IMG/VR virus record: IMGVR_UViG_3300036791_001093
Coordinates: 1 to 59,212 of that record
DNA length: 59,212 nucleotides
From: a virus
Direction: 5' to 3' (one strand)
A program made the translations under genes and the position numbers. Positions 4,480 through 13,612 of this stretch are shown piece after piece (position 1 is the stretch's first letter; each line of letters opens with the position of its first letter). Below the pieces are notes generated by a model. That model was not told the DNA's origin and did no database searches. It worked only from the letters and a program-made list of their open reading frames with translations.

Positions 4480-5058
4480 ATGCCCCCTCTGATTGACATC
4501 ACCGGACAACGCTTCGGTCGGTACCTCGCCGTCAGAATTGCCGGCGAAGACAATCATGGCAAGCCGCTTTGGCTGTGCCATTGTGATTGTGGCAACAAGC
4601 GGCTCGTGCAGAGCGGTAATCTTCGCAGCGGTAAATCTCGATCATGCGGCTGTCGGAAAATTCGGCACGGACAAGCTCTTACTGACAAACGTACGCCGGA
4701 GTATGTCCTATGGAGGAACATGCTTAGTAGATGTGCTAACCCCAATCTCCCTAACTATAAAAACTACGGCGGACGCGGCATCAGAGTATGCAAACGTTGG
4801 CAATCGTTCGAGCAATTTTTTGCCGACATGGGGCCGCGGCCGTCCCCCGATCACTCGATCGATCGTATCGACAACGAAGGAAACTACCAACCAAGTAACT
4901 GCAAATGGAGTACGCGAAGCGAACAAATGTACAATAGGCGGCCGGCATCTGAGGCAACAAGGCAAAAGCGGCGCCGGCCGCATACCGAAGCGACAAAGCA
5001 GAAGATGCGGCTTGCCAAGCTCAAATATTGGCAGCTGAAAAACTGTTACATCGTGTAA
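4480..5058 (+). CDS. HNH homing-type endonuclease
   Basis: 192 residues. The N-terminal part has [10 protein letters not shown] and paired Cys (CHCDCGN ... SCGC) likely to bind zinc. The nuclease core contains [13 protein letters not shown] and [18 protein letters not shown], a pattern typical of phage HNH endonucleases. The C-terminal [12 protein letters not shown] matches the NUMOD3-type DNA-binding repeat, probably present twice. It starts four bases after the ATPase gene and its last codons and stop lie inside the 17-bp palindrome at 5044. It is probably a free-standing selfish gene inserted in the early operon; it belongs to the same HNH subfamily as the one nested in the polymerase intein. 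Confidence 0.88.
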
Positions 5059-9558: not shown

Positions 9559-10272
9559 ATGGCCTTCCATGTTCGCTGCAACTTCAATCGTATCCAGTCT
9601 TATGCCCAGGCCTTGACGGCCTGGGAATATGGCGTGATCTTCCGCAACGCGCCAGCGCTGCGCGGGCTGGTCAATAAACGCAAGAAACATCTTACGGTTA
9701 GACAAACAGAGTCAGGGGATATCGTCCTGCAGCTGTACGGTCATGACACCGTGACCTGGCACAAAGACAACTCGGTGACTATTCGCGCACATCCTACACG
9801 ATCGACAATCGTGTTTGCTAACCATTGTACGCCCATGAGTATGTTCGTGGGGATGTGCGGCGGATACTTCTCCGTTACAGTTGACGGACGTACTTACAAA
9901 GTGGAGGACTGGATTAGATTCCGGCAGCGCGATAATACCTGGAAGGCAGATCAGATCACGCCATGGTCTATCCCTGCCGTCAACCGCGAGCGCGCCCGGC
10001 AAGCGCTCGACGAAACGGGTTACAAAGAGTTCCGAGTTTGGTTCCAGGTTTATGTGCAGATGGCTGTAGTATCGCAGGATGTTAATCCACTCATCAGGTA
10101 CAGGACTGGTACTGAAGTTGTTGATCTGTTGCGTCAGCGTAAATGGCGCGAGTTGGCCATGTGTTTCCAGAACTCCTGGGGACGCCCCGATCAGGCGTTG
10201 GACGCCGTACGACAGGCGATCTACCACGAATATAATTGCATGGAGCACAAGTCTGTGCCGTTCCTGGGGTGA
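9559..10272 (+). CDS. Hypothetical protein next to DNA polymerase
   Basis: 237 residues, aromatic-rich, not recognised. The first half alternates strands (IVLQLYGHDTVTWH, FSVTVDGRTYKVEDWIRF) and the second is helical. It starts after CAGGAGTGACTTACC, and its end overlaps the ribosome-binding region of the polymerase gene (stop TGA six bases before the ATG), so the two are probably co-translated. Confidence 0.7.
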   Translation: MAFHVRCNFNRIQSYAQALTAWEYGVIFRNAPALRGLVNKRKKHLTVRQTESGDIVLQLYGHDTVTWHKDNSVTIRAHPTRSTIVFANHCTPMSMFVGMCGGYFSVTVDGRTYKVEDWIRFRQRDNTWKADQITPWSIPAVNRERARQALDETGYKEFRVWFQVYVQMAVVSQDVNPLIRYRTGTEVVDLLRQRKWRELAMCFQNSWGRPDQALDAVRQAIYHEYNCMEHKSVPFLG

Positions 10273-10277
10273 TCGAA

Positions 10278-12974
10278 ATGAGAATCGCGGCCTTCGATAT
10301 AGAAACTAGCGGCGAGCTCCATGAGCATGCCCTTCAGCCTTGGCGCGTGCGTCAGGGCAAAGCCTGGTTGACGAGCTTGGCCTGGGTGTGGCGCCAGGAC
10401 GGTAAGACCCTCCATGATGGGGGGTTATTGTCCTCCCCATTGGAAACGACTCAGATGATCCGCGCCATGCTGGCGTGGGCGATCGAGAATGAGTCCATAC
10501 TGGTGGGGTGGAACGTCGTTTTCGACATTGCATGGCTCTATGCCTACGGCGAAAAGGACGCTGCCATCCTTGGGCTTCTTGACAAGGTCCGTTTTCTCGA
10601 TGCGATGCTGCTGTGGCGGCATTTAGATATCGAACCGGACTATGACCACAACCAGCACAGCTACAGCCTCAAGACGGCGGTGCCATTGTTCTTTCCGCAA
10701 TATGCCGGGTACGAAGCTGATATCGACTACCACGGAACGGACCCCGAGCAGCTTGCAAGACTCCATGAGTACAACATCAAGGACTGCGTCTTCACGCTGC
10801 GGCTGGCCTGGAAGTTCTGGAAGGGGTTAACTCACTCTCAACAGATCGTAGCCATAACCGAGGCCGCTTCGTTCAAGATGATCGCCCGCGCCAATCTGGA
10901 GGGGCTCACCGTAGACACGCTGGAGGCCGGCAATCTTTCCGCGTGCCTCAAGCAGGTCGCGGCCGCCAGGCTGGAAAGCCTGGCGCCACATGGCATCACC
11001 GAGAAGATCGTACGCTCGCCCAAGCAACTGGGTGAAGTTCTTTATGACCAGTGGAAACTCCCTGTGCACAACCTCACTCCTTCCGGCGCTCGATCTACTG
11101 ACAAGGTCAGTCTGCACCGGCTGGCGCTCAGGGACATCCGCGTCAAGCAGATCAAGGAATACCGCGAGGCGCTGAACAACGATACCAAGTTCGCACAGGC
11201 CCCTCTCAAATCATGCGCCTACAACGGCGACAGCCGTTCGCATCCGCAGATGAAGGTGTTCGGTACGTACAGCGGACGATGCACCTACGGTTCCAAGCAG
11301 GGCAAGAACAAAGGCACGCGGCAAATCGGATTCGCGCTGCATCAAGAGAAGCGTGATCCGGTGTTCCGCCGGATCATCGTGCCGCCGCCGGGGTTCACCT
11401 TGATGGAGTTCGACGCCGCCGGCCAGGAGTATCGCTGGATGGCAATCGCTTCTCGCGATGGGACCATGCTCAAGTTGTGCCAGCCAGGTCAGGACCCACA
11501 TGCCTACATGGGCTCAAGGATCGACCGCACACTTACTTACAAGCAGATTCAGGAGAATGCCAAGGTCATCGGATCGCCGGAGGCCAACGCACGTCAATGC
11601 GGTAAGGTTGTGAATTTGTGCGTCGCTAGAGATACCAAGATATTGACCGATCGTGGGTATGTCGCTATACAGAATGTCAAGTGCGATGATCTGGTTTGGG
11701 ATGGTGTCGAGTTTGTTACCCATAGTGGTGTTGTCTGTAGTGGCTATCGACCAGTTATCTCCTATCAAGGATTAACAGCAACACCAGAACATGGAGTGTT
11801 AGTTGATGGCGAGTGGGTCTCGCTTGAGGAAGCCGCCGCGCATGGTTGGACCATCTCATCCGAATTGGGCGCGGGATGGGCGGGTAAAGCGTGGGCAGCG
11901 TTTTGGATCGTGGATGGTGTTATCCAGCGTACCGTTCGAGAAAAGTGGCGCGCTCTATGTACGAGCACGTTGTGCCTGTGGCATCGAGCGAGAAGCCAAT
12001 CTTCGTTTCATGGAGACTGGACGATCAACGCAATGCAAAGCATGCGCTTCACGACAAGTGAATGCACGACGGGGGCGGTTTATTGTCCGCAGCGTAACAG
12101 ACAAGCGTTTACAAAAACGGGTCAACGCTTGGTTTCAGAGATGCAACAATCCGAAGGATCAAAGCTATCACAACTACGGCGGACGTGGGATCGAATGTCG
12201 ATTTGGTTCGGTTCGCGAAGCTATAGAGTGGGTCAAGAAACATCTACCGCATCCGACATATTTGAGACTCGACATCGGCCGGATCAACAACGATGGGTAT
12301 TACGAGCCCGGCAACCTGCGCTTAGAGACACGCTCGCAAAACCTACTAAACAGACGCAAGCGTATGTCTATGACATCGTGAACTGTGGACCACGATCCAG
12401 GTTCGCCGCCAATGGACTTATCGTACACAACTCTAGCCAATACCGAGTTGGTTCCAAGAAGCTTCAGCAGATTGCTGAGGTTGACTACGGCATTCGGCTG
12501 TCGCTTGAAGAGGCGCAGCGCATTCAGAAAGTTTACCTGGCGGCTTATCCAGGGCTTCAGCGATATTGGGCCAACCAAATTCAGTCGGCAGAAGCCAATG
12601 GATACGTTGAGACTATCGCTGGCCGCCGGGTCAAGCTGACTGGTTGGCGGGATGGTCATTGGAGTTGGCAGGTAGAAAGTACGGCGATCAACTATCGCAT
12701 CCAGGGAACAGGGGCTGACCAGAAATATCTCGCCCTGCGCTGTGTGCGGGAGTATCTCAATACGATCGGCGCAAGATTTGCGTGGGACCTGCACGATGGG
12801 CTCTATTTCTATGTGCCTACACCAAGGGTGGAAGAGGCGGCGCACGAGATCAAAGACATCTTCGATAACCTCCCTTACGAGGCTGTCTGGCGTTTCAAGC
12901 CGCCGATCCCGATGCCATGGGACTGCAAGGTAGGCCCCAGCTGGGGCGGTCTGAGACCATTCGAGTTTAGTTGA
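10278..12974 (+). CDS. Family A DNA polymerase with 3'-5' exonuclease, intein-containing
   Basis: 898 codons, of which 271 are an intein, leaving about 627 residues, usual for a phage family A polymerase. The exonuclease motifs are AAFDIETSG at the start, NVVFDIAWLY and YNIKDCVF (Exo I-III). Polymerase motif A is LMEFDAAGQEYRW, motif B is RQCGKVVNL/SSQYRVG split by the intein, and motif C is DLHDGLYFYV. The last has Gly where most family members have Glu after HD; the catalytic Asp is present. The start at 10278 (MRIAAFDIE) is chosen over an upstream in-frame codon because the GGGGTGA motif lies at the right distance. It copies the phage genome with the downstream primase-helicase. Confidence 0.93.
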   Translation: MRIAAFDIETSGELHEHALQPWRVRQGKAWLTSLAWVWRQDGKTLHDGGLLSSPLETTQMIRAMLAWAIENESILVGWNVVFDIAWLYAYGEKDAAILGLLDKVRFLDAMLLWRHLDIEPDYDHNQHSYSLKTAVPLFFPQYAGYEADIDYHGTDPEQLARLHEYNIKDCVFTLRLAWKFWKGLTHSQQIVAITEAASFKMIARANLEGLTVDTLEAGNLSACLKQVAAARLESLAPHGITEKIVRSPKQLGEVLYDQWKLPVHNLTPSGARSTDKVSLHRLALRDIRVKQIKEYREALNNDTKFAQAPLKSCAYNGDSRSHPQMKVFGTYSGRCTYGSKQGKNKGTRQIGFALHQEKRDPVFRRIIVPPPGFTLMEFDAAGQEYRWMAIASRDGTMLKLCQPGQDPHAYMGSRIDRTLTYKQIQENAKVIGSPEANARQCGKVVNLCVARDTKILTDRGYVAIQNVKCDDLVWDGVEFVTHSGVVCSGYRPVISYQGLTATPEHGVLVDGEWVSLEEAAAHGWTISSELGAGWAGKAWAAFWIVDGVIQRTVREKWRALCTSTLCLWHRARSQSSFHGDWTINAMQSMRFTTSECTTGAVYCPQRNRQAFTKTGQRLVSEMQQSEGSKLSQLRRTWDRMSIWFGSRSYRVGQETSTASDIFETRHRPDQQRWVLRARQPALRDTLAKPTKQTQAYVYDIVNCGPRSRFAANGLIVHNSSQYRVGSKKLQQIAEVDYGIRLSLEEAQRIQKVYLAAYPGLQRYWANQIQSAEANGYVETIAGRRVKLTGWRDGHWSWQVESTAINYRIQGTGADQKYLALRCVREYLNTIGARFAWDLHDGLYFYVPTPRVEEAAHEIKDIFDNLPYEAVWRFKPPIPMPWDCKVGPSWGGLRPFEFS
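11619..12431 (+). other. Intein in polymerase motif B
   Basis: 271 codons in frame with the polymerase. It begins with Cys (CVARDTKILTDRGYV, block A), has TATPEHGVLV (block B, TxxH) and ends VYDIVNCGPRSRF..NGLIVHN, followed by Ser, the usual block F/G and +1 nucleophile. Removing it restores motif B of the O-helix. The roughly 180 codons between the splicing blocks translate into an unnatural Trp/Ser/Arg-rich sequence in this frame because an HNH endonuclease gene occupies the same DNA in the +1 frame. The intein frame nevertheless has no stop. Confidence 0.92.
11842..12381 (+). CDS. HNH endonuclease nested in the intein in another frame
   Basis: 179 residues from ATG 11842, preceded by GAGGAAG at about nine bases; the open frame reaches back to 11803. 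It has GQRFGSWMVL, paired Cys (CACG, CKAC), NYGGRGIECRFGS and LDIGRINNDGYYEPGNLRLE, the same HNH subfamily as the gene at 4480. It is read in the +1 frame relative to the polymerase and intein. Its stop falls inside the codons for intein block F. It is probably translated as a separate protein and could promote homing of the intein. It is encoded wholly within an essential gene. Confidence 0.85.
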   Translation: MVGPSHPNWARDGRVKRGQRFGSWMVLSSVPFEKSGALYVRARCACGIEREANLRFMETGRSTQCKACASRQVNARRGRFIVRSVTDKRLQKRVNAWFQRCNNPKDQSYHNYGGRGIECRFGSVREAIEWVKKHLPHPTYLRLDIGRINNDGYYEPGNLRLETRSQNLLNRRKRMSMTS

Positions 12975-13026
12975 CCGCGAAAGGAAGGTGATGCCTATTG
13001 GACACGGCCCGACCGATTTTAATAGA

Positions 13027-13056
13027 TCGCCCCCACCACCATGGTGGTGGGGGCGA
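13027..13056. terminator. 30-bp perfect palindrome after polymerase gene
   Basis: The sequence from TCGCCCCCACCACC to its exact reverse complement meets at a central ATGGT-like core (CCATGG) with no unpaired base. It lies 52 bases after the polymerase stop and 20 before the methyltransferase start. It is likely a transcript-end or mRNA-stabilising hairpin; no T-run follows. Confidence 0.65.
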
Positions 13057-13075
13057 CGCAAAGGGACTAACCATC

Positions 13076-13612
13076 ATGCGCTATCATGCAATTTATGCCG
13101 ACCCGCCGTGGTCGTTCCGCACCTGGAGCGCGCGGGGCCGCGGCCGGGCAGCGGAGCGTCACTACAGGTCACACTCCACACTCGACACGATCAAGAGGCT
13201 GCCGATCCAAAACCTCGCTGCCAAGGACTGCGCGTTATTCCTGTGGGCAACCTGGCCCAACCTTGACGATGCCCGCGAGGTTATCGCATCGTGGGGATTC
13301 ACCTACAAGACCTGCGCGTTCCTGTGGGTAAAACAAACCAAGCGCGGTAACGGGTTGCACTTTGGTTTGGGGTACTGGACTCGTGCTAACTCCGAGCCGT
13401 GCCTGCTTGCGACTTGCGGCAAGCCCAAACGGCTTCATGCTGATGTCCCGCAGATTATTCTTGAGCCTGTGCGCGAGCATAGCCGCAAGCCTGACTGCGT
13501 ACGTCAGCGGATCGAGAGACTTGTTGCTGGGCCGCGTATCGAATTATATGCCCGCAATTCCGATCATCTTGGGTGGGATTTCTGGGGAGACGAGATAGAG
13601 AGGTTCCAATGA
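13076..13612 (+). CDS. MT-A70 family adenine methyltransferase
   Basis: 178 residues. DPPW at residues 9-12 is the catalytic motif of MT-A70-type N6-adenine methyltransferases, followed by LFLWATWPNLDDA, WGFTYKTCAFLWVK, and a C-terminal RVELYAR-like segment (RIELYARNS). The start at 13076 has AAGGGA upstream; the longer open frame would include the palindrome and a His/Gly-rich artefact. It probably methylates adenine in phage DNA, protecting it from host restriction, or changes host regulation. No matching restriction enzyme is present. The stop overlaps the next start (ATGA). Confidence 0.88.
   Translation: MRYHAIYADPPWSFRTWSARGRGRAAERHYRSHSTLDTIKRLPIQNLAAKDCALFLWATWPNLDDAREVIASWGFTYKTCAFLWVKQTKRGNGLHFGLGYWTRANSEPCLLATCGKPKRLHADVPQIILEPVREHSRKPDCVRQRIERLVAGPRIELYARNSDHLGWDFWGDEIERFQ

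Follow-up and report, generated by a model that had tools for sequence, protein, structure and literature searches.

A family-A DNA polymerase intein of a virus, probably mobile, with an HNH endonuclease gene read out of frame over its middle

The 59,212 nucleotides of IMG/VR virus record IMGVR_UViG_3300036791_001093 analysed here (positions 1 to 59,212, referred to as the window) contain a DNA polymerase gene interrupted by an in-frame intein, and an HNH endonuclease gene lies entirely inside the intein coding sequence in a different reading frame. The element is very likely a mobile intein with a homing endonuclease that is dual-coded over the middle of the intein and translated separately. 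The evidence is computational and comprises the frames and their conservation, the avoidance of stop codons, codon periodicity, a predicted Hint fold and the patchy occurrence of the element, with some sites empty. A wider proposal, on which we are evenly divided, is that this is a widespread, old and undescribed class of mobile inteins whose endonuclease is without exception dual-coded, in one of two registers, with the ribosome binding site and start codon inside conserved Hint motifs, and that transitions to mini- and split inteins have occurred repeatedly.

The polymerase open reading frame spans 10236-12974 on the + strand, with a probable ATG start at 10278 and an alternative opening at TTG 10236. 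The gene (10278-12974) encodes exteins and intein in one frame and was assigned to family A by Pfam (DNA_pol_A, E=1.7e-40) and NCBIfam (DNA polymerase I, E=4e-38). The intein of 271 aa (11619-12431, + strand) is inserted between ARQCGKVVNL and SSQYR, in motif B (the O-helix) of the polymerase, as the first-pass annotation had claimed. It has the residues of a class 1 intein: Cys1 at 11619, block B TxxH in the form TPEH at ~11781-11792, VYDIVNCGPRSRFAANGLIVHN at its end with the C-terminal HN (VHN) and the last Asn at 12429-12431, and Ser+1 at 12432. T55, H58 and N271 are invariant in the 32 aligned inteins. The empty site is clean in seven intein-less polymerases (L004-L010) that are 73-82 % identical to the window polymerase. 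Judged from these residues and the model described below, 11619-12431 is an in-frame intein in motif B that is predicted to splice in cis. Just downstream of the polymerase gene, at 12998-13612, there is an ORF with a DPPWSF motif, probably of the MT-A70-type methyltransferases.

In the AlphaFold model of the intein frame two confident parts, residues 1-80 and ~243-272 (pLDDT ~95), form a predicted Hint fold interrupted by a disordered loop of ~150 residues. The N-terminal splicing half with blocks A and B (~residues 1-80, 11619-11858, + strand, pLDDT ~95) was matched by the N-block HMM at E=1.9e-36, the window intein itself being among the training sequences, and the C-terminal half with blocks F and G (~residues 243-271, 12345-12431, + strand, pLDDT ~94) by the C-block HMM at E=3.7e-18. 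Pfam and NCBIfam searches did not name the HNH and gave the Hint halves at most sub-threshold matches. The model resembles inteins and related Hint proteins only, with Z 16.2-16.8 to mini-inteins (Ssp DnaB, Mtu RecA); the Mtu RecA splicing domain (3ifj) superimposed with Z 16.8 and an rmsd of 2.0 over 118 residues. The linker between the halves (residues 86-238, 11874-12332, + strand) is open, with 0 stops against ~7 expected, poorly conserved as a protein and predicted to be disordered (pLDDT <50). The stretch is thus not a spliced linker of the mature polymerase, as the first reading had it; it is a predicted disordered loop leaving with the excised intein.

The HNH gene (11842-12381, + strand, 179 aa) is read in the +1 frame relative to the intein, in agreement with the first-pass annotation. 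It lies wholly within the intein, an overlap of 540 nt or 180 codons over which the intein frame has no stop codon, and the window thus differs from inteins with an in-frame HNH domain, its nuclease not being in the intein reading frame. Homology was found to PHROG 374 (HNH endonuclease, E=4.6e-26) and PHROG 3377 (E=2e-15), and close relatives found in tblastn and pattern scans are L001 (72 % identity), L002 (66 %) and L003 (~65 %). The HNH frame carries CxC...CxxC pairs (11971-12045, + strand), a probable zinc site present in >90 % of the aligned members, and the motif NYGGRGI (12172-12192, + strand), in which Tyr112 and Arg115 are invariant in the HNH family alignment. The HNH frame modelled for L001 gave a confident fold (pLDDT 86) for which no PDB match was found by sequence, nor by Foldseek at E<=0.001; its similarity to PacI (3ldy) is weak, at Z 5.8 over 81 residues, and an unrelated chain scored equally. 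A second, free-standing HNH gene of 192 aa was noticed at 4480-5058, directly after a 360-aa ORF resembling an AAA ATPase; it is 35 % identical to the nested HNH and has IDRIDN intact.

The same arrangement was encountered in many other genomes. In all relatives collected by tblastn and pattern scans, close and distant, the intein is open and the HNH within it is out of frame. With intein N-block, C-block and HNH HMMs, and after removal of two doubly fetched contigs, 141 distinct loci that combine an open intein with an HNH in another frame were counted, 122 in the +1 and 19 in the +2 register. They come from IMG/VR contigs, GenBank phages and Firmicutes prophages; the GenBank phages, in which the gene is annotated merely as 'DNA polymerase', include EBPR siphovirus 2, Pseudomonas MR14, Vibrio 97.13, Streptococcus and Gardnerella phages and Salmonella jerseyviruses, and 163 records contain DNA similar to the intein of Salmonella phage SE2. 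The homologues also keep the +1 frame, so the condition that the first-pass annotation had set for its own refutation did not occur. The out-of-frame HNH of that annotation is real and is no single case; it represents a widespread, old class in two registers. A sequencing frameshift artefact was rejected, the arrangement being identical in independently sequenced phages and in prophages of assembled bacterial genomes.

A census that started from the intein N-block and ignored the HNH, with Hint HMM seeds taken mostly from HNH-bearing inteins, gave 108 open inteins with an out-of-frame HNH, 25 mini-inteins without HNH and 2 disrupted copies; intact copies with the HNH in the intein frame numbered 0 in this census. 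The sole member with the HNH in frame with the N-block, L255 from Eubacterium plexicaudatum ASF492, has its N and C blocks mutually out of frame and was seemingly broken by a frameshift. Judged by flanking motifs only, the host genes are mostly PolA at motif B, with others such as helicase-like genes in L041, L042 and L046. The inteins of L037, L039 and L046 end in LVAN or LVSN and not LVHN, a non-standard penultimate residue. The intein frame of the jerseyviruses (L031, Salmonella phage SE2) matches PHROG 93, named 'endonuclease', though the nuclease is in the other frame, and it seems to be mislabelled in the database.

To see how often an intein frame would be closed, the HNH protein was kept fixed, synonymous codons were resampled and intein-frame stops were counted. 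In 34 overlap loci (5,772 codons) 0 stops were present against ~208 expected, a pooled figure that is descriptive as the loci are phylogenetically non-independent. The third frame contained 300 stops against 239 expected in the same test, and nine split-intein relatives had 105 stops in frame against 81 expected. As the overlap class was defined by zero stops, the argument rests on the distance that separates 0 from 7-23 stops and on the third-frame control; the classes are discrete, with either 0 stops or 7 and more. For the window alone 0 stops were found against 7.0 expected (P = 2.5e-4, 154 codons outside the Hint blocks). Chance is excluded because the relatives agree, both in the absence of stops from the 34 loci and in the arrangement shared by the 141. 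These data also bear on the idea that the HNH region is removed as RNA, an intron nested in the intein, and is therefore never read in the intein frame. Phage group I introns often carry HNH genes, which gives the idea some appeal, but such an intron would not require a stop-free intein frame in 34/34 loci, and it was rejected as extremely unlikely when no group I or group II intron was matched in Rfam at E<=1.

Codon-position patterns, which the first reading had proposed to compare in both frames, follow the HNH gene in the overlap. Over 22 close pairs, differences at HNH codon positions 1/2/3 were 0.026/0.015/0.100 for the +1 class and 0.037/0.032/0.106 for the +2 class. In intein coordinates the fast position of the overlap is 1 or 2, and the Hint N-block and extein of the same genes change fastest at position 3. 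Comparison of homologous sequences thus shows that both readings, the open intein frame and the HNH frame, are kept by natural selection, and the suggestion that selection holds the intein frame free of stops was borne out. Similarity of the intein frame in the overlap was slightly higher than in HNH-fixed simulations (by a BLOSUM z of 1.4-4.6 for distant pairs; for HNH wobble z was 0.1-2.6). Strong protein-level selection on the linker was rejected, such selection being at most weak, since the similarity barely exceeds the simulation. This says that the linker sequence is of little importance beyond staying open, because its similarity is near that of the simulation and two registers exist.

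The window copy departs from its family at one place. The HNH motif quoted in the first-pass annotation is present, but it reads IGRINNDG and deviates from the family consensus IDRIDNDG: a Gly codon at 12277-12279 (+ strand; D146G) replaces an Asp found in 138/142 aligned members, and the set of family-conserved, probable active-site residues is incomplete in this protein, the other motifs being intact. The window HNH may be nuclease-dead through D146G, because the lost Asp is presumably a metal ligand of HNH enzymes. An inactive window copy fits the known homing cycle and leaves the class as a whole unaffected. The substitution is the first of three points in favour of decay, according to which the HNH is a dead passenger, the overlap a leftover and only the open intein frame matters; the others are the HNH of L025, truncated by a nonsense change, and the many mini-inteins without HNH. 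For the window copy alone decay is possible. As a general account it is very unlikely, in view of the purifying selection on the HNH frame in close pairs (wobble 0.10 versus 0.015-0.026; amino-acid change of 3.5 %) and the persistence of the HNH ORF in 141 loci. In Streptococcus phages PhiSdyV1524 (L025) and Javan113 (L033) the nested HNHs are 195 and 257 aa long owing to that nonsense change; the intein frame of L025 is untouched, so HNH decay is independent of splicing there.

How the HNH would be translated was approached through its start sites. In the window a possible Shine-Dalgarno sequence, GAGGA (11826-11830, + strand; duplex energy -6.2 kcal/mol), stands 11 nt before ATG 11842, and an ATG at this offset, the later start used by the subclade of the window, is also present in L001, L017 and L036. 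Alternative starts lie upstream at ATG 11806 and TTG 11803; the window start is ambiguous between 11842 and 11806, and the Shine-Dalgarno sequence is modest. The best HNH start of 65 loci is at intein offset 145, where the codons for the Hint motif (K/R)EVIxY(D/E)G read AAGGAGGT...TATGA and so yield a Shine-Dalgarno sequence and an HNH-frame ATG. Most mini-inteins retain the Shine-Dalgarno-like motif too, and it may be dictated by the amino acid sequence of the Hint domain rather than selected for initiation. Programmed frameshifting from the polymerase frame, producing an extein-IntN-HNH fusion and no free HNH, would be compatible with the location of the HNH on the same transcript and + strand and with the +2-class HNH ORF, whose open frame extends upstream into the Hint N half. 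It would, however, demand two kinds of slip for the +1 and +2 registers, and most members have a strong Shine-Dalgarno sequence and ATG at a fixed place, which makes it quite improbable.

Internal initiation is the route taken in the proposed mechanism, in which we infer splicing, HNH expression, cleavage and homing. Ribosomes in the polymerase frame would make a precursor polymerase, whose Hint halves would assemble into one fold, splice out the intein and join the flanking polymerase parts, with the out-of-frame reading of the HNH gene tolerated as a disordered loop. Other ribosomes would start at the Shine-Dalgarno sequence and ATG within the Hint coding sequence and produce the HNH as a free protein; this would cleave polymerase alleles that lack the intein and lead to homing. 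Selection on the polymerase would keep the intein frame stop-free and selection for homing would maintain the HNH frame.

On the HNH tree the +2 register forms one clade, and two changes each are required for the +1 register and for the split class; dual coding is stable over deep divergence because three changes explain all labels. The polymerases of the window and L001 are 49 % identical but their HNHs 72 % (linkers, 37 %), a difference that points to horizontal transfer of the intein/HNH element. Mini-inteins occupying the same site are spread over the Hint tree, with 21 changes for 24 rows (few columns and weak support), the pattern expected from repeated HNH loss. The invasion of a mini-intein by an HNH gene, favoured in the first-pass annotation, is a possible direction but only one, given that scatter, the existence of split relatives and the HNH remnant in L034. 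In this last locus (Streptococcus phage Javan422, 3347-3850) the mini-intein resembles an internal HNH deletion with the polymerase frame kept. In nine split relatives (L051, L071, L074, L081, L084, L090, L092, L101 and L103) IntN stops and is followed by an HNH ORF and then by IntC, mostly with its own plausible start. L081, L084, L090, L092, L071, L074 and L103, which lie in family-A polymerases, are predicted to be natural split inteins with short IntC pieces and may serve as new protein-ligation tools.

The textbook intein is a single polypeptide with an in-frame nuclease domain. Mini-inteins such as the Ssp DnaB mini-intein and the Mtu RecA splicing domain have the Hint fold seen here but lack a nuclease frame. 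Dassa et al. reportedly described, in 2009, 'fractured genes' whose split inteins have a free-standing endonuclease located between the two halves. The nine split relatives look like these, with a separate endonuclease ORF between the halves; the window and 140 other loci, unlike split inteins, have a continuous, dual-coded intein that is predicted to splice in cis. The HNH intein of Dalgaard et al. 1997, as cited in PMC5050341, has its nuclease as an in-frame domain of the intein polypeptide; such inteins likewise combine an intein with an HNH nuclease for homing, whereas the window nuclease has a separate reading frame. The ShiLan domain, the closest published case, according to PMC11855218 contains an out-of-frame HNH without a splicing domain and was judged not to be spliced. 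It shares with the window an HNH gene in another frame of an open host ORF and a sporadic distribution; it is without an intein splicing domain, whereas the window intein has a predicted Hint fold. ShiLan gp65 gave no match to the HNH family HMM up to E=10 and none to the intein-block models, and because both sets of models find nothing there its HNH is assigned to another family and the domain regarded as an analogue and not a homologue. An intein with an out-of-frame endonuclease was not found in the literature searched; a preprint (10.1101/2025.01.02.630785, 'Actinobacteriophage Inteins... Non-Canonical Architecture', cited in PMC11855218) might describe one, and the priority of the dual-coded intein finding is uncertain.

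The family offers a clean system for overlapping-gene evolution, with a single HNH family occurring in both registers, the third frame as a control and natural deletions, and it points to a path linking full, mini- and split inteins that is relevant to intein engineering. The dual-coded design is directly testable in jerseyviruses. Many annotated phage polymerases may hide an unannotated nuclease, the SE2-intein-like records alone numbering 163. For the phages themselves, splicing and mobility would be kept in two overlapping genes, a long stretch of dual coding conserved across distant phages.
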